Shown here: positions 21,281 to 34,771 of the stretch, one piece after another | How positions within the stretch are numbered: position 1 is the stretch's first letter | Layout: each line of letters starts with the position of its first letter | Source: an uncultured bacterium | GTDB lineage: Bacteria > JAAXHH01 | Direction of reading: 5' to 3' | Assembly (NCBI GenBank): GCA_913051705.1 | Contig: CAJXCW010000004.1 | Coordinates: 1-53,202 of the forward strand | DNA length: 53,202 nt | Notes under the pieces: generated by a model | Told to the model about the DNA's origin: nothing | Databases searched by the model: none | The model's input: the letters and a program-made list of their open reading frames with translations, nothing else | Made by a program: the position numbers and the translations under genes

Positions 21281-22372
21281 TTATTTAGACCATTCTACAC
21301 GGGGACCGTCCACATAATCCAGAAAGCGGTTGGCGATGTCCGCCTGCTGCGTATTACCCGTGTGAATAACGACGCGCCATCGGAAGGTTATAGTTTCTTC
21401 GGCAGCCAGATGATGGTCGTCTTTAAACATCCAGCAGTTCGGGGCGAACAGGCCGTAACCGCGCACGTGCCAGGTGGTCGGATATCGAAAATTATCCGGA
21501 TGATCAAAGATGGCAAAACCGGTCACCTCATCACCGACCGGTCCGTAGTAATCCATCCAATGAGCCGGCTTCGACCAGCAACCGATCTCATCTGTCGCCC
21601 CATACGCATTCTCCATCTGTCCGCCGGCAGCTGCATCCATCGTTGGATTGACACGGATACACAGAAACCCGCCTTCTTTGGTCGCTCCGATGGTGATGGG
21701 ACCTTGCGAAGCTTCCAACATGAGGGTGACATCTAATACAACCGCCTCGCGCGGGGTGTCGAAGAGCCGGTACGAACGGCGATCGGTCATCAACGGTTTT
21801 TCCTTCTCATACCAGGTATTGGTGGTCGCAATAACCGTGGACAGCGGCCCCTGTCCGATCTCCATCGTATCCTGAATCGTACATCCGAATCCGGGTTGAT
21901 TCTGTTCATTCCAGCAATCCACCCCGTTTATTGCCCCCTGCATCAGCGTGAGTCCCCGTTGCCAGGGATGCTCGCCGTCCTCATAGGCTGCCATCGGCTC
22001 TCGTAGCATATTGATACCGCCGGGTGTCAAAAGCGGGTTTATGACCGGCTTGGGATAGGCTGTACTATGGTGAAAAGTCATAAACGGAGCGCCAGCCAAC
22101 GTGACATTGACTTGTTCATTTTCCTGGGTATGTCGAATGCCTGGGGCAGCTTGCGGCTCTTCCAGAGGAGACACATCGCAGGTCATCTCCTGGCCTGCAG
22201 TCAGATTCGGTAGATGTACATAATACACTGGTACGCAAGGGTCACGCTCAGCGATGTATTGTAAGCCATCTTGAGTGACCAGAAGTAAGGCGGCTGCTTC
22301 ACAGCCCTCCGGGGCAGGTATGCTGGTCAGATGTTTGGTCCTTGATCGAGGTAAGGATAGGGTCAATTTCAT
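21281..22372 (-). CDS. DUF6807 / PmoA-like family protein
   Basis: A 363-residue protein of the family named PmoA-like (methane oxygenase PmoA) in databases, though unrelated in role to particulate methane monooxygenase. Typical segments are FHHSTAYPKPVINPLLTPGG, GEHPWQRGL, GATKEGGFLCIRV, NFRYPTTWHVRGYGLFAPN and an ending with FLDYVDGPRVEW. The fold is a beta-sandwich. Start at 22372 supported by GGAGA six bases upstream. In related genomes such proteins sit in sugar or sulfated-glycan catabolic clusters. Here it is the last gene after a sulfatase on the same strand. Confidence 0.85.
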   Translation of the reverse strand: MKLTLSLPRSRTKHLTSIPAPEGCEAAALLLVTQDGLQYIAERDPCVPVYYVHLPNLTAGQEMTCDVSPLEEPQAAPGIRHTQENEQVNVTLAGAPFMTFHHSTAYPKPVINPLLTPGGINMLREPMAAYEDGEHPWQRGLTLMQGAINGVDCWNEQNQPGFGCTIQDTMEIGQGPLSTVIATTNTWYEKEKPLMTDRRSYRLFDTPREAVVLDVTLMLEASQGPITIGATKEGGFLCIRVNPTMDAAAGGQMENAYGATDEIGCWSKPAHWMDYYGPVGDEVTGFAIFDHPDNFRYPTTWHVRGYGLFAPNCWMFKDDHHLAAEETITFRWRVVIHTGNTQQADIANRFLDYVDGPRVEWSK

Positions 22373-22439
22373 CAGGTCTCCAGGTGGTTTTAGCAGGGTA
22401 ATATAAATAAGGCTTTAGCGCTGTAGTAACAACACCTCA

Positions 22440-23903
22440 TTACTCAAAAGCAATCCCCGGTCCCCAGGGTGCCATAGCGACCGTCGCATACGGATTTGAA
22501 ATAATATCCTTCTCCGCCAGAGCGGTACGCCACATACGGCGCACCAGATCCTGCTTGATATCCTGATATTCAGGCCGATCAGAAACATTGGTCAGTTCGT
22601 GAGGATCCTGTACCAGATCATACAGCTCGTCAAAGTCAAAGCCGTTATAGATATACTTATGCGTCTGGGTCTGCACCATCCGCTGGGTATAATAAAGCTC
22701 CACCCCGTTAAATTGGGTATACAGGGTATCACGCCAGCTGGTCGGTGAACTCTCGTTAAAAAAGGGCGTCAGACTTCTGCCGGCCACCCCTTCAGGTATC
22801 GGGCCTATGTCGGCCAGGTCCAGCAGCGTCGGGGCGATATCCATAATACTGATCAGCGCATCCGAGTCTCTGCCCGGCTGAACAATACCCTTCGGCCATC
22901 TCGCCATAAGCGGAATATGGTAGGCCTCCCGAAAGGCCGGCACGCCCTTGCAGTAAAGTCCATGCGCGCCACAATAGTCCCCATGATCCGACATACGCAA
23001 CACCAATGTGTTTTCTGCTGCACCGCTGGCCTCAAGCGCGTCAAGCACCTCACCGAACATCTCGTCCATCATGGTGCAATAGCCCCAGTAATGGGCAATG
23101 GATTCCCGAACCTCGGCCTCGGAGAGCTGATCCCAGTACTGACGCCGCTGCCGCTGATAGATCCGAGGTTTATCCTCCATCTGATCATGATAGCTGGGCG
23201 GCAGCGCAATCTGATCCGGATCGTACATATCGGCAAATCGCTCCGGTATGTTAAACGGGTCATGCGGTCCATTAGGACCGATGTACAGACACCAGGGCGT
23301 ATTCGATTCAGTCAGATCCGGCAAGACCTCTTTCGCTGCGGTAACAAATTGATAGTCCCGATCATTCTCATATCCTTTAGGGCCTTGATCGGGATACGTA
23401 TCGTAGACCTGATAATGGCCCCATCCAGGTCGCAGAATCTGACCACGCCCTCTCGTGTCATTCGATACCTTTGCCGCCTCTTCCCATCGAGCAGTCGGCG
23501 GGATGCCGGACTGCCGATCACCCGGCGAGCTGACGATCAACTCTTCCCATCCCCGGTCACACGGATTCTCATGATTGGATATATGCCATTTTCCGGAGAA
23601 CAGCATTCGGTATCCCGCCTCGCTTAATAATTCAGAGAAGGTGATCACGCCGTCGTTAAGTCCCCGATGGATAGCCGTGTGGGTATTGACATTGTTGTAG
23701 ACGCCATGGCGGCTTGGATACAACCCCGTCATAAAACTTGCCCGGGCAGGGCAGCAATGCGCTGCAACCGTATAGGCGTTTCTGAATCGGACGCCCTCGC
23801 CAGCAAACTGTTCCGTACGGGGCATAAGGCACGGATGCTCAGGAAAAGATACCTGCGCCTGCTCCTGATCGGTCATGTAGATAAGAATGTTAGGACGAGA
23901 CAT
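22440..23903 (-). CDS. Type I sulfatase (formylglycine-dependent)
   Basis: A 487-residue arylsulfatase-family enzyme. The start MSRPNILIYMTDQEQ leads into the N-terminal metal site. The sulfatase signature is C50-C51-P52-A53-R54 followed by ASFMTGLYPSRHG; Cys50 would be converted to formylglycine, needing a maturase not seen in this window. Further metal residues lie in MSDHGDYCGAHG. No signal peptide, so it is probably cytoplasmic, acting on an imported small sulfated compound. The in-frame extension to 23963 runs through repeat DNA and is not used. Followed by the DUF6807 gene, preceded by a class III aminotransferase. Confidence 0.93.
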   Translation of the reverse strand: MSRPNILIYMTDQEQAQVSFPEHPCLMPRTEQFAGEGVRFRNAYTVAAHCCPARASFMTGLYPSRHGVYNNVNTHTAIHRGLNDGVITFSELLSEAGYRMLFSGKWHISNHENPCDRGWEELIVSSPGDRQSGIPPTARWEEAAKVSNDTRGRGQILRPGWGHYQVYDTYPDQGPKGYENDRDYQFVTAAKEVLPDLTESNTPWCLYIGPNGPHDPFNIPERFADMYDPDQIALPPSYHDQMEDKPRIYQRQRRQYWDQLSEAEVRESIAHYWGYCTMMDEMFGEVLDALEASGAAENTLVLRMSDHGDYCGAHGLYCKGVPAFREAYHIPLMARWPKGIVQPGRDSDALISIMDIAPTLLDLADIGPIPEGVAGRSLTPFFNESSPTSWRDTLYTQFNGVELYYTQRMVQTQTHKYIYNGFDFDELYDLVQDPHELTNVSDRPEYQDIKQDLVRRMWRTALAEKDIISNPYATVAMAPWGPGIAFE

Positions 23904-23921
23904 AGGGAAATGGTGATTGGG

Positions 23922-23983
23922 TGATTGTCTGATTTGTATTAAGGTTGTCTTTTCAATCAACAAATCAACAAATCAGACAATCA
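23922..23983. repeat. 16-bp perfect inverted repeat at the aminotransferase stop
   Basis: TGATTGTCTGATTTGT (23922-23937) and ACAAATCAGACAATCA (23968-23983) are exact reverse complements, 30 bases apart. The right arm contains the TGA stop of the class III aminotransferase. It may act as a terminator or RNA-processing stem between that gene and the sulfatase gene; no T-run follows. Confidence 0.65.
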
Positions 23984-25351
23984 TTTCAACAGGGCAATAA
24001 TTTTATCTTTCACCATGGAGCGGATGACGTCCTGGAAGATGTCCAGGGTGTTTTGAATATCTGTTTCTGTGTGGGCAGCTGAGGTGACGCCGCCGGTGTA
24101 GGAAACCAGGTCTACGCCGCGTGCCAGGAGTAACTTCTGGAAGGCGGACACCACCTCTTTGGGGATGCCTTTCAGTATACCTGCCTCACTGGTGATCAGG
24201 TCCTGTCGCCGGGCAGCGCCCGTACCGGGATGGGCTTCCAGATATATGTGGAAGATGGATACATCGCCATAGACATAACCGGCGACACGCTCCTGATACA
24301 GGATATCGTCCATCCCCTGACGCAACACGGCGGCCATGCGATCTGCATGTTTATGAGGCAGACCGGTGGCGATCCGCTTCAATGTAGCGATGCCGGCTGC
24401 TGCGGATACAGGATTGGCGTTAAAGGTGCCGAGATGATGCACACGCTCATATCGATCGTGATGCGGGTCGCCTGTATAGTCGAATACCTGCATGATATCC
24501 GCACGGCCTGTTACAGCGCCCCCCGGTGTGCCGCCGGCGATGATCTTGCCGTGGATACTCATATCCGGGGTGAGGCCGGCATATTCCTGATACCCACCCG
24601 GTGCATACCGGAAACCGGTAATGACTTCATCATAGATGAGCAGCACACCGTACTCCGCCGTCAATCGGCGCAATTCACGGTTAAATTCCACCGTCAGCGG
24701 AACCGTACCCCACGAGGCGCCGGATGGCTCCAGCATCACCGCAGCCATGTCGGGATCGGTTTTAAATACCTCCTCCACACGATGTAGATCAGCGGGTATC
24801 ACCTTGATGGTATCCAGAGCGCCTTGCGGAATGCCCGCCGACACCGGTTCATCGAAGGGGATCATGGCCCCTTTGCCGACGCCGTCGTGCCAGCCGCTGA
24901 AATGCCCTTCGAATCGCAGCATCTTCATCTTCCCGGTAAACGCCCGGGCGATACGCAACGCCAGCATGCTGCCTTCCGAACCGGAGTTCACAAATCGGAT
25001 GCGGTCGGCACATGGCACGAGCGCCTGAACCAGTTCGGCCCATTCCACCTGCAAAGGATGGTCATTACCGAAATGAAACCCGCTGTCGAGCGCCCGATGC
25101 ATCGCTTTGAGCACTTCCGGCGGCGCATGCCCCAGAAAAATTGCCGTATTCCCCATACCGTAGTCGATATATTCCCGGCCGTCCGCATCCCATTTATGAG
25201 CGCCTTCAGCATGGGTAATATACAACGGCAAAGGATGCCCCATGCGCAGATCATGACCGACGCCGCCAGCCAGAGACGACAGGGATTGGGTATAAAGATC
25301 TACCGCACGCGGCTGGGTTTCTTTGTAGGCGTCAAACTGTGTATCTGACAT
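23981..25351 (-). CDS. Class III aminotransferase (glutamate-1-semialdehyde-aminomutase-like)
   Basis: A 456-residue PLP enzyme. Seen are FVNSGSEGSMLALRIARAFTG, LLIYDEVITGFRYAPGG (Asp binding the PLP ring), Lys of HGKIIAGGTPGGAVTGR (Schiff base) and HHLGTFNANPVSAAAG. These are the HemL-type features. It is somewhat long for HemL (about 430), and the setting in a catabolic cluster argues against heme synthesis and for an amino-group transfer on a substrate released by neighbouring enzymes. Start at 25351 has GGAGA seven bases upstream. Confidence 0.9.
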   Translation of the reverse strand: MSDTQFDAYKETQPRAVDLYTQSLSSLAGGVGHDLRMGHPLPLYITHAEGAHKWDADGREYIDYGMGNTAIFLGHAPPEVLKAMHRALDSGFHFGNDHPLQVEWAELVQALVPCADRIRFVNSGSEGSMLALRIARAFTGKMKMLRFEGHFSGWHDGVGKGAMIPFDEPVSAGIPQGALDTIKVIPADLHRVEEVFKTDPDMAAVMLEPSGASWGTVPLTVEFNRELRRLTAEYGVLLIYDEVITGFRYAPGGYQEYAGLTPDMSIHGKIIAGGTPGGAVTGRADIMQVFDYTGDPHHDRYERVHHLGTFNANPVSAAAGIATLKRIATGLPHKHADRMAAVLRQGMDDILYQERVAGYVYGDVSIFHIYLEAHPGTGAARRQDLITSEAGILKGIPKEVVSAFQKLLLARGVDLVSYTGGVTSAAHTETDIQNTLDIFQDVIRSMVKDKIIALLK

Positions 25352-25384
25352 GTAGAATCTCCGATGCAGAATGGCATGGTGATA

Positions 25385-26827
25385 TCAAACATTCAATTGA
25401 TCCAGCAAGGCCAGTGTTCGATCGATGACCTGTTGTTCTGAATCCGGATGGATGGCGGTGGGTAAACTGTAGGCCTGGAATAAAAGATCCGGCACACCGT
25501 ACCATCGCTTATGGATGTCCCATCCGCCCGGCGGAAAATCTTCTGCGCGGGGTAGATAAGACACACAACCATTGCTATAGCCTAAAACCTGGGTATAAGG
25601 AAACGGCGATCGGGCTTTGATAGTCAAGCCCGTTTCAAATAAAGTCTCGGTACTACTGTTGGCCAGAACGATGTCATTGATCCGAATAGCCTGGATACTG
25701 ACATCGAGCGTTTGTCGATTGGTCTCAATCGCCTCGACCAGTTTATCACTCCAGTCGGCAAACCGGGTGTTGACGTTGATTTCCCAATCCCGAGCACCGC
25801 TTGTTCTGGCTGTATCAAGCGCGTCGTGGCATTCATCCCGGATGACTTTGGCCTCCTCCAGGGAAGGCATCTCGATAAACCGTAAAGGCAAGACCTCCTC
25901 TACAGCCCCAAGATAGGTACACGAATCCCCGGTGACCGGTTCCCAGGGCCAGACGCTGATTTTAGAGAGCGACCCCATCACCGTACGTTCGCCACGTTGT
26001 ATATGGGTACGAATGGCCGAAGCAACTTTAACTACTTCTGCCCCCAGCATTTGACCGACTCGGGTTTTTTCATCGCGGCAGTCGATCGCCATATTCAAAC
26101 CGCCCTGCGGCATGATATTACCGCCACAGGCCTGTAAGAACATAGCTTTGCCGCCGATACTATTTTCTATAAGCGCTCTTGAGGCGCCGGGAAAATCAGG
26201 TGAGGCCACAAGGGCGCGTGGACCGATAGTCACCGTATGGCATCCGTAGCTGAACAGAGTAGCAAGTGGCTGACCGTTCAGATCGTCCACGCGGATGACG
26301 CCGACCGATGTGTCAATCGGATGATCCGGCACTTCACCCAGAAATACGTTACCGTCGGCATCCTTTTCACGCCGATAGACGCCGATATGACTCTCACCCC
26401 AGTCGGCGCCGATACGGGCCGGTTCCAGACATTCGTTCGCCTTCTCTGCCGCTTCTATGATCCATCGACACAGGTCATCCTGATAATTTGACTGCAGGGC
26501 AATCTGATCCGGTTCGTCCGGGCACCACGCCGGCATGGAGGGCGAACTGTGTGTATGGTTGAGGTTGATCATCACATGGGAGGCAGGCGTACCAACTGCT
26601 TCGCCGACTCGACGCCGTAAGTCGTTCATCACCTCCCACGCCAACCAGCCTGTATCTGTGGCGATGATTACGACCCTGGCCATTTCGTCGGATAACACAA
26701 GCGCCGTGGCGGACAGATCGCTTTCGATGGCCTGTACGACGCCTTCACGCGAACTGAATCCGAAGGTCTTGATGCCCAGTGGCGGATTGATGATACGTCG
26801 ACCGACCCCGGCGTGTAAGGTGGGCAT
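25385..26827 (-). CDS. Neutral/alkaline ceramidase-like hydrolase, cytoplasmic
   Basis: A 480-residue protein resembling the N-terminal catalytic domain of neutral ceramidase. Seen are GVGRRIINPPLGIKTFGFSSREG, ATDTGWLAW, NLNHTHSSPSMPAW (zinc His pair), FSYGCHTVTIGP and FLQACGGNIMPQGG. True ceramidases have a signal peptide and a second domain of about 150 residues; both are missing. Such short forms are common in sulfatase-rich genomes and act on unknown amide substrates. The leader shows no Shine-Dalgarno site and contains TTGGTGA-type repeats. Same strand as the flanking aminotransferase and isomerase. Confidence 0.85.
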   Translation of the reverse strand: MPTLHAGVGRRIINPPLGIKTFGFSSREGVVQAIESDLSATALVLSDEMARVVIIATDTGWLAWEVMNDLRRRVGEAVGTPASHVMINLNHTHSSPSMPAWCPDEPDQIALQSNYQDDLCRWIIEAAEKANECLEPARIGADWGESHIGVYRREKDADGNVFLGEVPDHPIDTSVGVIRVDDLNGQPLATLFSYGCHTVTIGPRALVASPDFPGASRALIENSIGGKAMFLQACGGNIMPQGGLNMAIDCRDEKTRVGQMLGAEVVKVASAIRTHIQRGERTVMGSLSKISVWPWEPVTGDSCTYLGAVEEVLPLRFIEMPSLEEAKVIRDECHDALDTARTSGARDWEINVNTRFADWSDKLVEAIETNRQTLDVSIQAIRINDIVLANSSTETLFETGLTIKARSPFPYTQVLGYSNGCVSYLPRAEDFPPGGWDIHKRWYGVPDLLFQAYSLPTAIHPDSEQQVIDRTLALLDQLNV

Positions 26828-26900
26828 GGAGGAGGTTAATTGGTGAGTTGGTGATTGGTATGATCAGGCTGAAGTATAGGTCGAACGATTAGCATCCATA

Positions 26901-27755
26901 TTACACGGGCACGTGGCCCTGTAACAGGTCCTTCACAAATATGGTTTCTGTCAGGCAATCGACCTGATTACAGTCGTACCAGGTCATACATACGAATTCG
27001 ACCGATAGACAGCGTTGATAATTCAGCGCCTTAAGCCGGTTAACGATATCGACAAAGTCGATGGTATTTTCGTCCAGCCGTGATTGCAACTTACCTGGCC
27101 GGGCTGGACGAATATGAAAATGATCTGTGTGGGCCAGCAGAGGATGTATACGTTCGTCCGGTATGTATTGCAAGGTAAAATGGGAATAATCGAGGGTTAC
27201 AGTAGCATGCGGCGTCCGTTCCAGGAGCGCCAGTGCCCGCTCGGGCGTGTCGACGACAGACATGACATGGGGTTCGAAACGCACAGTAATATTCTGCTCA
27301 CCGGCTATATCGGTGAGCGCATTCAGGGCTTCGGCCGTCGTATCGAGATTTTCATTATAGGAACGATCCGGATGGTGCATGCCGGGACTGATCGTAAACC
27401 CGGGTATACCGACCAGTTTACAGAATGTGATAATCCCCTGAAATGCCGTCTGATTTTGCTGCCTTACAGCAGGGTCAGGTGAATTGAAAGCCCGTTCATC
27501 CAGCGAGGCACCGAACTGAGGAAAAAAATCAACGGCCTCTAATTCGTACTGATCCAACAGTCGATTCAATCGATCGGCATGGCTCCGCGGGTCGGCAGCC
27601 ACCTCGTCCGGTTCCAGGCTGCAACGTCCCCGATTATGAAACCCGGCGATATCCACGCCCTTAAATCCCATCGCCTTCGTCAAGGCCAGTGTGCCTTCCA
27701 GATCCAGATATTCGAATGCATGATTGCTTACGGTCAGGCGCATCTTAAAACTCAT
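26901..27755 (-). CDS. Sugar phosphate isomerase/epimerase-like TIM barrel
   Basis: A 284-residue protein of the AP-endonuclease-2/xylose-isomerase-like superfamily. Seen are LTVSNHAFEYLDLEGTLALTKAMGFKGVDI, VRFEPHV (metal Glu), LDYSHF (metal Asp and His), DHFHIRPARPG (metal His) and LSVEFVCM (metal Glu). These give the usual divalent-metal site for an isomerase or epimerase acting on a sugar or inositol-type ketose. ATGs at 27755 and 27743 are both possible. Part of the sulfatase/PhyH block; exact substrate unknown. Confidence 0.88.
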   Translation of the reverse strand: MSFKMRLTVSNHAFEYLDLEGTLALTKAMGFKGVDIAGFHNRGRCSLEPDEVAADPRSHADRLNRLLDQYELEAVDFFPQFGASLDERAFNSPDPAVRQQNQTAFQGIITFCKLVGIPGFTISPGMHHPDRSYNENLDTTAEALNALTDIAGEQNITVRFEPHVMSVVDTPERALALLERTPHATVTLDYSHFTLQYIPDERIHPLLAHTDHFHIRPARPGKLQSRLDENTIDFVDIVNRLKALNYQRCLSVEFVCMTWYDCNQVDCLTETIFVKDLLQGHVPV

Positions 27756-27812
27756 TTAGTTATAGATATTTAACCGTGGCTTTCGCCTGGCAATTGGTAT
27801 AACGCCTGTAAA

Positions 27813-28478
27813 CTATCTCTCTGCTGCCAGAGCAACCACATGCGCCAGTGGGACGTCCGATAGCGCATTCAGATGCAGGTGACCGTGGTCGAAGGGCAGT
27901 TGGGCGGTCAGGGGATTCGGTACCACGACGCAGAATGTCCCGGCGTCATGGGCGGCTCGGGCGCCGTTTGGTGAGTCTTCCAGTACGATGGTTCTGGCCG
28001 GCGAAGCATTCAGGCGTGCAGCGGCTGTGAGGAATAATTCCGGATGCGGCTTTATATTTTCAACATCCTCGGCGCAAACCACTACTTCAAACTCATGTAA
28101 AAGGCCCAGACGCTCGAGGTTGCCGTCTACCCATGCATGATCTGAACTGGAGGCCACGCCGACTTTAATGCCCATCTCTTTGGCCTCTTTTATATAGTCC
28201 TGTACCCCAGGGAGGATGGGTTGTTCAAGTATGATCTCGCGTGCCCGCGCTTTATACCGCGCCTTGACCGCATCCCGATCGATAGAACATCCGAGAAGTT
28301 CTTCAAGATGATCGTAGGGATTATACCGGCTAAGCCAGGAACCGCCGACATTCTGGGCCCAGAGCGCTACAGTCAATTCATGGCCGTAATCCGAATAGAC
28401 TTCCTTCCAGCCCTGGAAATCCGGCGATTCGGTATCGAGGATCAATCCATCGAAATCGAAAAGAAGGGCTTCAGTCAT
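27813..28478 (-). CDS. HAD-superfamily phosphatase (beta-phosphoglucomutase-like)
   Basis: A 221-residue hydrolase. Motif I is FDFDGLILDTE (nucleophile Asp and acid/base Asp), motif II VGVASSS, motif III Lys near VENIKPHPELF and motif IV VLEDSPNGARAA. The cap is the C1 helical type. It probably dephosphorylates or mutates a small sugar phosphate. The start at 28478 lies six bases inside the 3' side of the PhyH gene (stop 28484-28486), so the two are tightly coupled and probably co-transcribed. Confidence 0.92.
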   Translation of the reverse strand: MTEALLFDFDGLILDTESPDFQGWKEVYSDYGHELTVALWAQNVGGSWLSRYNPYDHLEELLGCSIDRDAVKARYKARAREIILEQPILPGVQDYIKEAKEMGIKVGVASSSDHAWVDGNLERLGLLHEFEVVVCAEDVENIKPHPELFLTAAARLNASPARTIVLEDSPNGARAAHDAGTFCVVVPNPLTAQLPFDHGHLHLNALSDVPLAHVVALAAER

Positions 28479-28483
28479 GGGGA

Positions 28484-29260
28484 TTACGTCGCTTCTCCCA
28501 TGAGGTGATTCCAGCATTGGCGGCGTATCGTCCGTTCTTTGTAGTGGTCGCTCTGAGAGACACCGATCGGATTGCCGAAGGTCAGGATATTATGCGCGTC
28601 TTCTCTTTTCCCATTCCAGTCGGTCGGATGATTGAGCGCCTCGGGATCGTGGCTCCAGGTAGGGGCTGCATTGTCCTTTGTGCGCCGGAAAAGAAATTTG
28701 ATCATATGGCGTTTGATCGAGGAGCTGTTGGCTGCTGTGCCATGCCACAGGTCATAATGCGTGAACGCCATGGTACCGGCTTTGACCACGAGAGGAACCT
28801 GGCCTCGGATGTTGGAGTAGGTCGACATGCGATCTGTCGGCGCGTTACGAAACTGCGTACCGGGGACGATGACGGTAGGCCCCATATCCGGTGTGATGTC
28901 GGTCGGATAGTACAGACCGAGAAACCGGTTAATGTGAATATCTCTATTGTTGGTGCTGTCCTGATGCCAGTTCATATGCCCCGAACCGGGCTGTTTGCAG
29001 TGCCAGTGGCGATGCGACTGCACCTCGTAGTCTTCACCAAGGAGGCTGAGGAGCACCCCCTGAACCGCCGGATGATCGAGCGCCTGCCACAATTCCGGCA
29101 CAACGTCTGTGATGGCGTCGCCGGGATTCGAATCCAGATTATCTAACTGTTCAGCAATATGTTCATTCAGGCCATCCGGCAGATCCAACTCGAGCAGGTG
29201 ATAACCATTCACGACAAATTTGGCGACGTCTATATCCGTCATCAGATAGGAGCTATCCAT
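28484..29260 (-). CDS. Phytanoyl-CoA dioxygenase (PhyH) family Fe(II)/2-oxoglutarate enzyme
   Basis: A 258-residue oxygenase. The iron triad is His and Asp of MNWHQDS and the distal His of YDLWHGTAANSS, with the 2-oxoglutarate-binding Arg in IKRHMIKF. PhyH proteins are strongly expanded in Latescibacteria, Poribacteria and related groups, where most substrates are unknown. Its start overlaps the stop of the 101-aa gene by eight bases (ATGGATAG), which suggests translational coupling in the order 101-aa protein, PhyH, HAD phosphatase. Confidence 0.92.
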   Translation of the reverse strand: MDSSYLMTDIDVAKFVVNGYHLLELDLPDGLNEHIAEQLDNLDSNPGDAITDVVPELWQALDHPAVQGVLLSLLGEDYEVQSHRHWHCKQPGSGHMNWHQDSTNNRDIHINRFLGLYYPTDITPDMGPTVIVPGTQFRNAPTDRMSTYSNIRGQVPLVVKAGTMAFTHYDLWHGTAANSSSIKRHMIKFLFRRTKDNAAPTWSHDPEALNHPTDWNGKREDAHNILTFGNPIGVSQSDHYKERTIRRQCWNHLMGEAT

Positions 29261-29558
29261 CCTGTACTACCTCCATCTTCTGTAGAATAAACTCATAACC
29301 AACGACATCGAGATCGTGGTCGTCAAACGGCGCCTGCAGATGAGGAAACTGCACGATCTGCCAGCCTTCGACCAGGGCATCATGTATCGTCTTGTAAGGC
29401 CATTCCTGTACCTCTGCCGTGATTTCTACCCGGTAGTTCTTGACCGGCTCGATAGGCGTATAGCCCAGAATGTCTGAAAAAACACTTGAGGTACGCGCAT
29501 GGAGGTACAGCAGTCGCTGCCGCGGCTGAGTGGCTATGTCGGATGAAGAAGGAGGCAT
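29253..29558 (-). CDS. Uncharacterised 101-aa protein coupled to PhyH
   Basis: Start at 29558 with AAGGA six bases upstream; the longer frame to 29678 would run into the dockerin gene and is rejected. The sequence has no signal or membrane segment. Its middle (YRVEITAEVQEWPYKTIHDA) and end (FDDHDLDVVGYEFILQKMEV) suggest a small alpha/beta domain rich in acidic and aromatic residues. I do not recognise the family. The eight-base overlap with the PhyH gene downstream is the strongest clue to its role. Confidence 0.7.
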   Translation of the reverse strand: MPPSSSDIATQPRQRLLYLHARTSSVFSDILGYTPIEPVKNYRVEITAEVQEWPYKTIHDALVEGWQIVQFPHLQAPFDDHDLDVVGYEFILQKMEVVQDG

Positions 29559-29566
29559 GTTGGTCC

Positions 29567-32500
29567 TTATTTTAATAGGGTCATGCGCCTTGTCTCGGTA
29601 AAACCGGTTTCCGATGTAAGGCGGTAAAGATAAACGCCCGAGGCCACCGAATGACCCTGCGTATTCGCGCCGTGCCAATCCACCGTGTAACGTCCGACTG
29701 CCTGAACCCCATCGACCAGTACCACTACTTCCTGGCCGAGCAAATTATAGATGGTCAGCCTGATCCGAGAGGTTTGCGGCACATCGTATGATATGCGTGT
29801 ACTGGGATTAAACGGGTTAGGCGCATTCAATCCCAACGTGAAGGACGTGGGCGTCTTCGAGACCTTCACGCTACCATTCGTGATGGATAGGGTTACACCT
29901 TGGGCCTGAGGGTCAGCTATAATAGCTTGTTCGACGGAAATAGATCCACCGCCATTACCCCGGAATTCGACAGGGATGTTGAGCAGGGTGTTCAGCGATG
30001 GGGATTGAAATGTACGGCCATCCACACTGTAAATGATGATATGGATCATGCCATCTGAAACAGACTGTTCCACGGTCATGCCGTCAAGCAGTGCCGTGGG
30101 TTGCACATCACCGATGCGGATCATCGCCGGATCATACTTCAGGATTAACTCCAGCCCGGCTACAAACCCGGCGAACTGCGACTTGATGGGGAGCATCAGT
30201 CGCCCCTCATCTCCGGATTTCAGATCGCTCAGGTGCAGCACCGCAGGCCCGGTTGATGCGGCAATCTGTTTCGACACCGCCTTACCTATGACTATGTTCA
30301 CCGCCCGGACGACATCTATGATGTTGATGGATCCATCGCCGTTGAGGTCGGCCAGGAAATGCTCAAACGTGCCGGCGTCAGGCACCGGAACCTTTCTGAT
30401 AATGATTTTGATGAGAAAGACAATATCCGTGACATCAATCACGCCGTCATTATTTGCCAGGTCGCCTTTAATACCGACATCGATGTGTCCGTTTTGAACG
30501 GTATTGTGGGTTATGGGCCCACTGCTGTGATTGGAAATAACACTCTCCGATAACGTCAGGCTGATTCGCCTTCCGAGACTCACGGTATCATCCACTTGGT
30601 ATACCAGCTGCATCAATGTGGTGTTCCCGCCCGGAATGGAGTTGCCTCCAGAATTTAAGATGTGGAATCTAACACCGCTCGAATCAGGAGCAAAAGAGAT
30701 GGAGAATCCGGATAGGTGGCTCACGACGCCCTGGAAGGTCGCGCCGGGGCCAGTCGCCACGTTGAATTTAAGGTCTGCCGCTGGCTGGGCATCTTGGTTT
30801 TGCAGGAGGACCACCTTGTTCGTCACGGTCTTTCCCGGCTTACCGTGCCCTGGGTATAGTGCTATGGTGGTTGAAAAAACAGGGACACCGGTTGTATTAA
30901 TTTTGTTGCTCCGTCCCAGGTCACCTTGGTCGTCTCCATTCGGCCCGCCGAGGACACTCAAGCGCGCATAGTACGAGCCTGAAAAATCGCTGTCCAGAGC
31001 ATCACCTGTTATGTTGCTGAAATCCTCGGGGCCGACCACAAAACCCGCGTTCCACACCGAATCTGGAATGGTCGGCGCCCCTGAATTTGTCGGAACGAAT
31101 GACAGTAACAGGCTCATTGGTTTATATTCCGCCCCAGTTGTATCCTGACCATCGTCTACAAAGGGAATCTGGAAATCGGCGATCATGTGAAACACGTGAC
31201 CCTGATCGGGGCGCACGGCTTCAAACATGCGCGTCGTCCAGCGGGACCCCTTAACATGGAAGTCCGCCAGCGTAGAATCCTGCTGAACATTACCATTATC
31301 GCCATTTTGACCATCCCCATTATCTTCATTGAAATCGACTACCTCGCCATTATCTTCAATCAATTGCAATACCGTATCGAATTCATTGAAATCGGCATTG
31401 AATTCCGTGTTCAATGCCGGGAATGTCCCATCGGTCAGGAACTGGGCTCGAACCCAGTAGTCGCCGGAAAAACTGTCCGGAAAAGCGGCGGAATTCTGAG
31501 TGGGTTCCCAGCCCTGCGCATCCGTGTGGATAGTCAGGGCAGACCACAACGTAGACAGGCCGTGTAGAGAATCGAATGGTACGGTCTGGGGGATCATTAA
31601 ATAATGAAGGTGAATGTCGCTTCCGCCGACACCAGCTTCCCCTATCTTTGCCACGAGATTCCAGCCTTTTTTTGTCTCGTCGGATTCACTATGAATCGGC
31701 CATATTCTGCTTTCCCACTCCGACTCACCCGTCACGTTGAGTGTGGGCCCCTGTAAACTTAAGCTATCAATTAAGAGATAATGGGGATCTATTATTGCGT
31801 ACGTTTTGGTGAGGAAGGCCTGGTCCTTGACGGTAAACGTGACTTTGAATTTTCGAACCTCAAGCGTGTCCTCGCGCGCCACCGTAATCTTTATGTTAGA
31901 ATTGACGCCGTCCAACGTAACATAAACCAGGTGTGAACCACCTGCTACCACATTAATATCCACGATTTTGGGCGTAATAGAACCTGTATCGGCCCGCAGG
32001 CGGATCTGATGATTGAAACTCGTAGGATGCCCTATCTGGTTTTCAACGCGTTGCACTGGGGTAAGGAAGATAGGAAAAGGCACGTTGGGATTGGCCATGT
32101 AGGGGACGGAAATTTCAACACCCGTGGTTGAATTGCCGAAACTCGCGCTGTCCAACACTTGAGTACTGCTGGCATTGCCGCCGAAGTGAGGCAGTCCATT
32201 TCCGTGCGCCTGTATGAATATCTCGGTACCGCTGGTAAGGGATCCCAAAGTTATTTCAACCTCGTCTAAACCGCTGCCAGATGCCTGAAATGACGACGGC
32301 GCAATAGAAACCGAGTCCGCATCCCCAGAGCTGTTGGCTATAAAGGCCTTGAGGGTAACGGTCCCAGCGACGCCCGAAACGATAGGCCGCCCTACCGAAT
32401 CGATTTCCATGACGACGATCTTGAATGGGGTTTCGTTTTCAACTATCCTGGGCGCCACGACCGAAAAATCAGCAACGATGGGTTCCGCCTTGACGCTCAA

Positions 32501-32569
32501 GGCTGCAACGCTGCAAAGCATCAAGAGGGTACAGTATACCAAATTATGGGTTTTCAAGATGGTCTCCAT
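29567..32569 (-). CDS. Secreted cohesin-dockerin-cohesin protein with FlgD/T9SS-like C-terminus
   Basis: A protein of about 1000 residues. A signal peptide (LVYCTLLMLCSVAALSVKA) is followed by several beta-sandwich regions with no recognised enzyme motif. A cohesin-like domain (PGHGKPGKTVTNKVVL to GHIDV) leads into a type I dockerin pair: GDLANNDGVIDVTDIVFLI and ADLNGDGSINIIDVVRAV, two EF-hand-like calcium loops. A second cohesin-like domain follows (SGDEGRLMLPIKSQFAGFV), and the end carries APNPFNPSTRISYDVP and SGVYLYRLTSE, the FlgD-like/type IX-type sorting repeat. An Asp/Asn/Gly-rich stretch near residue 418 resembles a flexible linker. It is probably on the cell surface. Start could also be at 32587; neither has a clear ribosome site. 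Confidence 0.85.
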   Translation of the reverse strand: METILKTHNLVYCTLLMLCSVAALSVKAEPIVADFSVVAPRIVENETPFKIVVMEIDSVGRPIVSGVAGTVTLKAFIANSSGDADSVSIAPSSFQASGSGLDEVEITLGSLTSGTEIFIQAHGNGLPHFGGNASSTQVLDSASFGNSTTGVEISVPYMANPNVPFPIFLTPVQRVENQIGHPTSFNHQIRLRADTGSITPKIVDINVVAGGSHLVYVTLDGVNSNIKITVAREDTLEVRKFKVTFTVKDQAFLTKTYAIIDPHYLLIDSLSLQGPTLNVTGESEWESRIWPIHSESDETKKGWNLVAKIGEAGVGGSDIHLHYLMIPQTVPFDSLHGLSTLWSALTIHTDAQGWEPTQNSAAFPDSFSGDYWVRAQFLTDGTFPALNTEFNADFNEFDTVLQLIEDNGEVVDFNEDNGDGQNGDNGNVQQDSTLADFHVKGSRWTTRMFEAVRPDQGHVFHMIADFQIPFVDDGQDTTGAEYKPMSLLLSFVPTNSGAPTIPDSVWNAGFVVGPEDFSNITGDALDSDFSGSYYARLSVLGGPNGDDQGDLGRSNKINTTGVPVFSTTIALYPGHGKPGKTVTNKVVLLQNQDAQPAADLKFNVATGPGATFQGVVSHLSGFSISFAPDSSGVRFHILNSGGNSIPGGNTTLMQLVYQVDDTVSLGRRISLTLSESVISNHSSGPITHNTVQNGHIDVGIKGDLANNDGVIDVTDIVFLIKIIIRKVPVPDAGTFEHFLADLNGDGSINIIDVVRAVNIVIGKAVSKQIAASTGPAVLHLSDLKSGDEGRLMLPIKSQFAGFVAGLELILKYDPAMIRIGDVQPTALLDGMTVEQSVSDGMIHIIIYSVDGRTFQSPSLNTLLNIPVEFRGNGGGSISVEQAIIADPQAQGVTLSITNGSVKVSKTPTSFTLGLNAPNPFNPSTRISYDVPQTSRIRLTIYNLLGQEVVVLVDGVQAVGRYTVDWHGANTQGHSVASGVYLYRLTSETGFTETRRMTLLK

Positions 32570-32814
32570 TTTATACTGTCTTGCCATGCGTTCGGTAATG
32601 GGGGGAAAAAAGAGTTTGTGGCACGGTGTTCATGGAAGGCCCTCGTTGCGCCGATTTTCATATTGTACAGACGGGTTGATGGTCATTTTCTACATGTCCC
32701 GGTTAAATGTATTCTAATTCATGTGTAACATATGGCAAGGAGATGCCTACAGCAAGCATGATTTATTGTTTTTGACACGGCTTACCCGGTCAGAATGGGA
32801 TTTTGACCCTATTT

Positions 32815-33720
32815 CTATCCTTTCCGAAATCGTTCTACCTCCGACAGACCGGCCAGGGTGCAGTTCAAGCCGGCGGTCCAGCTTGCCAGTTGAGTGGCGC
32901 TGACCGGATCTCGGGTGACCAGATAGTCGGTCAGGAATCCAGCGGCAAAAGCATCACCGCAACCGGTAGTATCAACAACCTCTTCTACCGCTTCCGGTGG
33001 GCTTATGAATGTTTTGATTTCATCGGCGTCACGATACACGGTGACGGAACCAAACCGACCGCGGGTAGCGATATAGATAGATGGGCCCAGACCAAGGATC
33101 ATTTTGCCGAATGCGATAAAATCCTGGTCTGTTTCTATCTCTCTGTCCGCTAACAGAGCCGCTTCCACCTCGTTCATCTGGACTACATCGACCCATTCCA
33201 TCCATTCATGCCAGCGGTCCTGCGCTCTATGGAAACGGTGGCCCTGCTCATCAATCCCCAGGCATAGATTGTGCACATCGAGGTAGATGAGACCCTGAGA
33301 CCGGGCGCGTATTTCCCGCATGGTTTCCCGACTGATATCATCTCCAACAATAAAATTAATCAGAATCGCATCATGATTCAGAAACGGCTCAATCTGATCA
33401 AACGGAATACTACCAATGTGATTGGTCAGACGTTCCACCTTCTCCATCGAGGCATCATAACGGATGGTGTTGCAGCTGGTCCCTTCCGGTGCGATGGCCA
33501 CCCCGCAGAGGTCCACATTGGGATAGGACGCCAGGATGTTGGTCATCATATCATAACAATCTTCACCGATCCGCGTCACCGGAAAGAGCGAAGTCTGCTC
33601 ATCCACCATATTAGCCAGCACGGCGGTGTTATATAGAATACCGCCCAGGTCCTGTAGCTCCTGACCGTTGGCCATAGCGATAGTGTCGTGATTGATGATG
33701 CCGATGATGGCAATGCGCAT
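32815..33720 (-). CDS. PfkB family carbohydrate/nucleoside kinase
   Basis: A 301-residue kinase. Seen are the N-terminal substrate region LGGILYNTAVLANM, the DVHNLCLG strand, and the C-terminal PfkB signature DTTGCGDAFAAGF with the catalytic Asp. It phosphorylates a sugar or similar alcohol with ATP; specificity is not readable. The ATG follows directly on five copies of a 7-bp repeat, with no Shine-Dalgarno sequence, so translation may depend on coupling to the upstream heptosyltransferase gene, whose stop lies inside the same repeat. Confidence 0.88.
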   Translation of the reverse strand: MRIAIIGIINHDTIAMANGQELQDLGGILYNTAVLANMVDEQTSLFPVTRIGEDCYDMMTNILASYPNVDLCGVAIAPEGTSCNTIRYDASMEKVERLTNHIGSIPFDQIEPFLNHDAILINFIVGDDISRETMREIRARSQGLIYLDVHNLCLGIDEQGHRFHRAQDRWHEWMEWVDVVQMNEVEAALLADREIETDQDFIAFGKMILGLGPSIYIATRGRFGSVTVYRDADEIKTFISPPEAVEEVVDTTGCGDAFAAGFLTDYLVTRDPVSATQLASWTAGLNCTLAGLSEVERFRKG

Positions 33721-33721
33721 G

Positions 33722-33756
33722 GGGTTCAGGGTTCAGGGTTCAGGGTTCAGGGTTCA
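33722..33756. repeat. Heptanucleotide tandem repeat (GGGTTCA x5)
   Basis: Five perfect GGGTTCA units followed by a partial one. The tract provides the leader of the PfkB kinase and the last codons plus TGA stop (33740-33742) of the heptosyltransferase-like gene. A change in unit number would alter spacing between the two genes and the length of the C-terminal tail. Confidence 0.9.
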
Positions 33757-34771
33757 GGGTTTGAAGCATAGAGGATGTGGTTTTCATAACCATATCCGTG
33801 GTGATTTCTTTCATGCAGGCATGAGTACCTATGGGGCATTCGGGGCCGCCGTGCGTGCCGCATGGACGGCAGGGTAAGGCTCGTTCTATGACCTGATGGC
33901 CATTGCCATAAGGAGTAAATCCTAAGGAGGCTACGGTCGGTCCGAACAGGCTGATCACCGGCGTGTCCATTGCGGCGGCGATATGAGCCATACCGGTATC
34001 ATTTGATATCATGACCGCACATCGTGAGGCCAGGGCCGCTGACTGAAGTAAGGATAGTTGACCTGCTGCATTGATCGGGGATACGCCGGATTGTTCCGCA
34101 ATCTGTCGGCAGAGCGCTTCATCATCGGCGCCGCCGAACAGGACCACGCGTCCCGTATGTTCGTCCGTGAGTCGTTTTGCGCTTTCGGCGAAGCGGTCCG
34201 GCAGCCAGCGCTTCGTCGCCCACACTGAACCGGGACTGATGCCGAATAGTATCTCATCCGGTCTGACGTCGTGGCGTTTTAACAGATTATCCGCTGCGGT
34301 ATGGTCCGTATCATCCGGGTACAACTTCGGCTTAGAACTTAATGGGGCTGAGGTCAAAGGACTGAGAAGCCTCAGATTGCGTTCTACCTCATGCACCGCC
34401 TGATACGGCACCCGATGCGTCAGCAGCCACCGTCCGGAGCTCGTGTCGAACCCGACGCGTACAGGAATCCGCGATAGCCGGGCCAGCATCGCGCTACGGA
34501 GCGAGCGATGCGGTATCAGCGCTGCCTCAAAATGCTTCTCACGAAGACGGCTCCCCAGACGAATCAGCCCTTTTAAACCCCGATCAGCACCCTTCTTATC
34601 AAATGGAATAATCTCATCTACCGCTGGGTTATTATACAGCACCCCAACCGCATCAGGCCGTACAACAGCGGCGATATACGTGGCCCCAAGTTGCTCCCGC
34701 GCCGCCTGTAATAACGGCGTTGCCAGCACTACGTCGCCTATGAAGGCGGTTTGTATGATGAGCAGGTTCAT
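33740..34771 (-). CDS. Glycosyltransferase family 9, ADP-heptose:LPS heptosyltransferase (WaaF-like)
   Basis: A 343-residue GT-B enzyme that adds heptose to the lipopolysaccharide inner core. Seen are LLIIQTAFIGDVVLATPLLQ (N-terminal glycine-rich loop), the central GISPGSVWATKRWLPDRF, VVLFGGADDEALC, and the donor-site motif MISNDTGMAHIAAAMDTPVI followed by LFGPT. It fits with lptD and the acyltransferase elsewhere in the window. The final residues LNPEP come from heptamer repeats, so the natural C-terminus is variable or has been lengthened by repeat growth. Confidence 0.88.
   Translation of the reverse strand: MNLLIIQTAFIGDVVLATPLLQAAREQLGATYIAAVVRPDAVGVLYNNPAVDEIIPFDKKGADRGLKGLIRLGSRLREKHFEAALIPHRSLRSAMLARLSRIPVRVGFDTSSGRWLLTHRVPYQAVHEVERNLRLLSPLTSAPLSSKPKLYPDDTDHTAADNLLKRHDVRPDEILFGISPGSVWATKRWLPDRFAESAKRLTDEHTGRVVLFGGADDEALCRQIAEQSGVSPINAAGQLSLLQSAALASRCAVMISNDTGMAHIAAAMDTPVISLFGPTVASLGFTPYGNGHQVIERALPCRPCGTHGGPECPIGTHACMKEITTDMVMKTTSSMLQTLNPEP

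Follow-up and report, generated by a model that had tools for sequence, protein, structure and literature searches.

The locus analyzed here raises the question of whether eight consecutive genes in an uncultured bacterium form one pathway and, if so, what kind of compound that pathway handles. The genes lie on the minus strand, at positions 21281-29558 of a 53,202-nucleotide stretch (contig CAJXCW010000004.1, assembly GCA_913051705.1; hereafter, the window), whose two closest named relatives, by an exact-peptide pattern search, are Candidatus Latescibacterota metagenome-assembled genomes. A first-pass annotation had proposed that all eight products act together on an imported sulfated amino sugar or sphingoid-like compound. 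Our comparison reveals that the eight genes are not one conserved set: a core of three enzyme genes, led by a P101-PhyH gene pair and ended by a DUF6807 gene, recurs across the lineage, and the sulfatase and HAD genes look like add-ons. The reading that we favor, at a probability of roughly 40%, is that of a lineage-conserved cytoplasmic operon for the catabolism of a small N-acylated compound, either an amino polyol or an amino sugar. All eight open reading frames (ORFs) are present as the annotation described, one after another on one strand and with ATG starts; in 5′ to 3′ order they are as follows.

29253..29558, minus strand: P101, 101 aa, companion of PhyH; its 3′ end lies 8 bp within the PhyH gene
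28484..29260, minus strand: PhyH, a PhyH-family Fe(II)/2-oxoglutarate (2OG) oxygenase of the P101-linked clade (PF05721, E = 9e-16; conserved residues; clade tree)
27813..28517, minus strand: HAD, a beta-PGM-like HAD hydrolase (HAD_2, 1.5e-31); accessory, at the locus in the window genome only
26901..27755, minus strand: TIM, a xylose-isomerase-like TIM barrel (PF01261, AP_endonuc_2, 4e-25); core
25385..26827, minus strand: CER, a neutral-ceramidase-like metal amidase, predicted to be cytoplasmic (profile match to 2zws); core
23981..25351, minus strand: AMT, a HemL-like class-III aminotransferase/aminomutase, not HemL (motifs; TIGR00713 score; Aminotran_3, 5e-50); core
22440..23963, minus strand: SULF, a sulfatase (PF00884, 1.5e-46, with SGSH_C and a CxPxR motif), likely start at the internal ATG 23903; accessory
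21281..22372, minus strand: DUF6807 protein (PF14100, 2e-55); usual last core gene

Apart from the overlap of the first two genes, the intergenic gaps given by the ORF coordinates are short. The shared strand is weak evidence for a functional unit, since every gene called between 17.9 and 40.2 kb lies on the minus strand. Likewise, one PhyH and one sulfatase within eight genes are unremarkable, since the 5.45-Mb window genome contains ~150 PhyH and ~66 sulfatase matches. In a promoter and terminator scan, the number of promoter-like sites did not depart from chance (16, compared with 14.3 in shuffles), and the scan was not used.

Gene content and order were compared in 16 Latescibacterota genomes, using tblastn and phmmer on the regions around CER orthologues. 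CER orthologues (E ≤ 1e-60) are present in 14 of the 16, and in 13 of these 14 the TIM, CER, and AMT genes are adjacent and codirectional; in the exception, G009, the contig ends within CER and an AMT fragment opens another contig. Neither CER nor AMT orthologues were found in G013 and G014, which are 87% and 83% complete, respectively. Upstream of TIM, 13 of the 14 CER genomes carry the P101-PhyH pair. HAD lies between the pair and TIM in the window genome, a 0.7-kb gap with no HAD match occupies this position in G001, and in G012 the pair and TIM are on a second contig. The contigs permit a test for DUF6807 in 12 genomes, and in 11 of these it comes directly after AMT, with G001 lacking it there. 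The lack of joint conservation that would count against the annotated set applies to two of the eight genes, SULF and HAD, but not to the other six, such that a cytoplasmic core with hydrolytic, pyridoxal phosphate (PLP)-dependent, isomerase-type, and oxygenase members in conserved order stands, whereas the eight-gene set does not. At L033:11069-12473 the G010 AMT aligns in two pieces, possibly reflecting a frameshift or an assembly error.

The proposed sulfated substrate fares poorly in the same comparison. SULF is found at the locus in two genomes, those of the window and G015, with no relative at E ≤ 1e-70 anywhere in the other 14 of the 16, and HAD is absent from all loci examined other than that of the window. 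Since only two loci carry SULF and one carries HAD, "sulfated" is not a core property, and this separation of core and accessory genes indicates that it should not steer the choice of substrate. A single pathway of all eight genes for an imported sulfated amino sugar would explain why SULF directly follows AMT in two different families and why 127 shared SULF residues are 82% identical between the window and G015, compared with 66-75% for AMT, CER, and TIM. However, the rarity of both accessory genes, together with a sulfatase complement large enough to make a chance neighbor possible, leaves this proposal unlikely. SULF is an S1 sulfatase by PF00884 (159.5 bits) and its formylglycine-type CxPxR motif (CCPAR at 70). 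It falls short of the choline sulfatase equivalog cut-off (TIGR03417, 213 bits against 433). Passages of two papers describe sulfatases as common in related lineages and interpret them as tools for sulfated polysaccharides (PMC7081726, PMC4454575), which fits the sporadic presence of SULF at this locus. For DUF6807, the passages naming it in one paper describe no function (PMC10971088).

G015 belongs to another family and is a better test than gene order within the family. In this genome TIM, CER, AMT, and SULF are kept together, and the leading slot holds a different PhyH (PF05721, 1.5e-35) that falls outside the P101 clade in the PhyH tree described below. The P101-PhyH pair of G015, 66% and 70% identical to the window P101 and PhyH, is located on another contig beside other genes. 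Because G015 carries them on different contigs, P101-PhyH and TIM-CER-AMT form two units that can be separated.

The core enzymes retain residues expected of their families. The CER orthologue profile matches the neutral ceramidase of Pseudomonas aeruginosa, 2zws (5.5e-10), as well as another neutral ceramidase, 4wgk (5e-4). CER residues H91, H197, E394, and Y424, invariant in 15 sequences, align with the zinc ligands of 2zws, H97, H204, E411, and Y448, although the alignment stretch that holds E394 and Y424 is weak alone (2.9 bits). On this alignment CER retains all four zinc ligands of the neutral/alkaline ceramidases. We did not accept it as a true ceramidase, as it scores 29.8 bits against PF04734, under the curated gathering cut-off of 32.1. 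A second CER paralogue, 52% identical, lies apart from the other core genes at L037 (G000:C283), beside NHL-repeat-like, FAD-oxidase-like, and cupin-like genes, named by reading their sequences. Predicted models were too poor for use (predicted local distance difference test score of 48 for CER and 54 for P101).

AMT keeps the GKxxxGG PLP lysine motif (GKIIAGG at 268) and has the motif GGVGHDLR at 29. HemL was rejected as an assignment because the TIGR00713 score, 283.8 bits, is far under the equivalog cut-off of 527.3. Among solved structures, AMT is closest to D-phenylglycine aminotransferase (5e-73) and glutamate-1-semialdehyde aminomutase (GSAM). Of the 16 genomes, 15 carry a second AMT paralogue (41-43% identity), and only G012 shows no such copy at E ≤ 1e-90; the second copy of the window genome is also below the HemL cut-off. 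TIM is 75-82% identical to 10 orthologues, with E161, D189, H214, and E253, its putative metal ligands, invariant in 11 of 11 sequences. The annotation's assignment of the whole set to the cytoplasm, including a sulfatase without a signal peptide, agrees with our data, as none of the eight proteins has a hydrophobic N terminus by a crude KD(12) hydropathy test that involved no signal-peptide predictor (maximum of 1.4, compared with 2.5 in the secreted neighbor at 29567).

These relationships lend little to the sphingoid substrate. A ceramidase-like enzyme next to a FumI-like aminotransferase might indicate degradation of a sphingolipid or sulfonolipid, given that CER is related to neutral ceramidase and that the sphingoid-like aminopentol aminotransferase 6hbs is among the solved relatives of AMT. 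Yet 6hbs stands far down that list (5e-21, against 5e-73 for D-phenylglycine aminotransferase), CER has 480 residues compared with 646 in 2zws and shows no export signal, and no lipid enzyme is adjacent; we regard such a cluster as scarcely credible.

With per-enzyme chemistry taken from family knowledge, the favored catabolic operon may be pictured as follows, assuming that its genes are co-transcribed and that the steps run in this order. The zinc amidase CER would free an amine, which the PLP enzyme AMT would convert to a carbonyl or shift, and the TIM barrel would isomerize or dehydrate the keto product. The P101-PhyH pair could contribute a 2OG-dependent hydroxylation or oxidative demethylation. 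SULF, added here, and the HAD phosphatase, added only here, might allow sulfate or phosphate esters to be accepted. We favor a cytoplasmic catabolic core because the TIM-CER-AMT order is kept, in G015 as well, because the Zn, PLP, and Fe-2OG residues are kept, because no export signal was seen, and because SULF and HAD are rare.

Several observations weigh against this reading. The MoxR-DUF58 flanks are kept in most loci and PfkB-GT9 in several; with flanking genes syntenic as well, close spacing of the core within the family partly reflects common descent. Among the eight window genes there is neither a transporter nor a regulator. Ten fetched neighborhoods of AMT relatives outside the phylum contain no CER. 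A class-III aminotransferase adjoins CER in 2 of 15 distant CER neighborhoods of other phyla, but one of the two is a genuine hemL and the other GabT, and we treat this link as weak for that reason. Finally, the search of solved structures gave no relative of any enzyme in the set close enough to fix a substrate. Taken to its limit, the synteny argument would have unrelated genes held together in one family with no pathway at all, as the syntenic flanks and the varying gene content at both ends might suggest; the tight TIM-CER-AMT grouping in another family, with changed leading genes, renders this highly improbable. A more serious rival is a biosynthetic or modifying operon for an amino sugar, aminocyclitol, or small natural product, in which AMT introduces the amine or works as an aminomutase, PhyH hydroxylates, and CER trims an amide. 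Speaking for it are the near-universal presence of the genes in the family next to general-purpose neighbors, the missing transporter, and the place of GSAM, an aminomutase, among the best solved relatives of AMT. However, a zinc amidase, a sugar-isomerase barrel, and, in two lineages, a sulfatase are hydrolytic or isomerizing functions, and no biosynthetic scaffold enzyme is among the genes, so that we consider this alternative doubtful.

As a type of operon, the catabolic core is unremarkable; the more interesting part of the locus is the small protein P101, whose gene is almost always directly before one type of PhyH. The annotation had counted this novel 101-aa protein as part of the cluster; P101 is not particular to the window cluster, since it accompanies PhyH in other gene contexts too. 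In a first survey of the loci of all listed P101 places, 78 ORFs matched P101 at E ≤ 0.01, of which 76 are distinct (the duplicate places L009/L028 and L010/L034 each entered once; G006:C83, whose two stops left no ORF, was excluded beforehand, and a G044 match that looks false, E = 1.2e-3 within a 421-aa ORF, was included). A PhyH gene lies directly downstream on the same strand in 68 of the 76. Among the eight exceptions, L081 and L101 are at contig ends, L083 has 468 bp left, and L086 and L127 have a same-clade PhyH divergently adjacent (45 bp and ~530 bp, respectively); L088 is without PhyH and L095 is probably a false match. The last exception, at L084:4744-5100 (G014), is a P101 homologue without PhyH inside a glycine-cleavage-like (gcvPA-gcvPB-like) operon. 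In L080 a P101-PhyH pair directly follows a gcvPB-like gene, and at L078:9344-11827 (G199) a pair is followed by a gene reading like a GH29 alpha-L-fucosidase; the gcv-like genes were named by reading their sequences.

P101 belongs to a family with no convincing Pfam, PHROG, or PDB match. P101 itself has no Pfam match; of 73 members, 13 match DUF4082, at best with an unconvincing 0.0026. The best PHROGs value is 0.018, and the best PDB profile values are 0.29 with alignment A1 and 0.51 with A3, which is deeper than the shallow first alignment of 12 close orthologues. The protein is nevertheless well conserved, with 42 invariant columns among the 12 orthologues and nonsynonymous distances (dN) of 0.01-0.18 compared with synonymous distances (dS) of 0.23-2.8 where computable. 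Its profile has matches in 20 of 288 genomes, with at most eight per genome. With the deeper A3 profile, P101 was found in 77 of 84 genomes of a second phylum, which we guess to be the Poribacteria, where PhyH starts -8 to +88 bp from the end of P101 in 30 of the 30 best-matching loci (two of them, L253 and L269, repeat earlier places).

The window PhyH passes PF05721 (59.3 bits, cut-off 22), and its Fe/2OG residues H99, D101, H173, and R184 are invariant in 20 of 20 clade members. In a FastTree phylogeny of 111 PhyHs from the first-survey loci, the 70 P101-adjacent enzymes (68 downstream, 2 divergent) and one unlinked enzyme form a single starred clade. The P101-linkage label changes twice on this tree compared with 33.5 times in shuffles, a contrast to be read with the PhyHs without P101 being a biased group, drawn from fetched neighborhoods and not from whole genomes. 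P101 and PhyH distances correlate among 23 representatives (Spearman 0.53, permutation p 1e-4), which indicates joint descent, not binding. Searching the window genome with the clade profile recovered 11 PhyH members at E ≤ 2.4e-43, followed by a gap to 2.9e-22; six are P101-adjacent (five with P101 upstream, one divergent), four are HEAT-fused without P101, and one is neither. C-terminal HEAT fusions (PF13646) with no P101 of their own are found in L221, L222, L223, L224, and at L087:3889-5241, the last being the one unlinked enzyme that groups with the clade in the tree.

Collectively, these data suggest that P101 is not a cluster-specific enzyme but probably a subunit that partners a PhyH-type oxygenase, and that it would bind PhyH. 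We tentatively extend this to a class of two-component PhyH-type Fe(II)/2OG oxygenases in which P101 might be a required noncatalytic subunit that positions or recognizes the substrate, like the fused C-terminal HEAT repeats of the sister enzymes. Such a class would occur widely in the Latescibacterota and in a second phylum rich in PhyH, inserted into many operons, including the window cluster, which gives the pair a concrete metabolic neighborhood. A search of the open-licence literature found no earlier description of the P101-PhyH pair or of a HEAT-fused PhyH. Latescibacterota and Poribacteria have unusually many PhyH oxygenases whose function is mostly not known, and if one PhyH subclass needs a small partner, assays of the oxygenase alone would fail.

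Two further features adjoin the cluster. The gene at 29567-32587, which ends 8 bp upstream of P101, encodes a secreted protein of 1,006 aa that combines a dockerin and a weak cohesin domain with C-terminal sorting domains of the FlgD/T9SS type. Farther upstream (32815-34771) lie PfkB kinase and GT9 glycosyltransferase genes, syntenic in several relatives and possibly additional operon members; in G015, PfkB adjoins the PhyH slot.

Comparison with known systems places each component at some distance from its nearest model. CER shares the HTHS motif and the four aligned zinc ligands with neutral ceramidase 2zws but is shorter and without a visible export signal. AMT has the class-III PLP fold of GSAM and D-phenylglycine aminotransferase in common and, unlike HemL, scores well below the HemL cut-off. 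The poribacterial PhyH expansion is similarly massive and occurs in a sponge-associated lineage, with PhyH at >1.9% of genes according to passages of one report, though its phyH section mentions no small companion protein (PMC3909097). Substrates of PhyH-family enzymes include 2′-O-methylated nucleosides, according to passages of another (PMC12709175), and, from the molecule names of matched structures, ectoine and kanamycin; given this diversity, the PhyH step cannot be specified. The window PhyH, for which no solved relative was found at E ≤ 1e-3, shares the HxD...H and Arg residues with EctD, KanJ, PHYHD1, and TlxJ-TlxI, all of them remote profile matches. TlxJ and TlxI are chains of one PDB entry, 7vbq, and form a heterodimer. 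In that assembly, however, TlxI is itself PhyH-type, whereas P101 is a small, unrelated protein.

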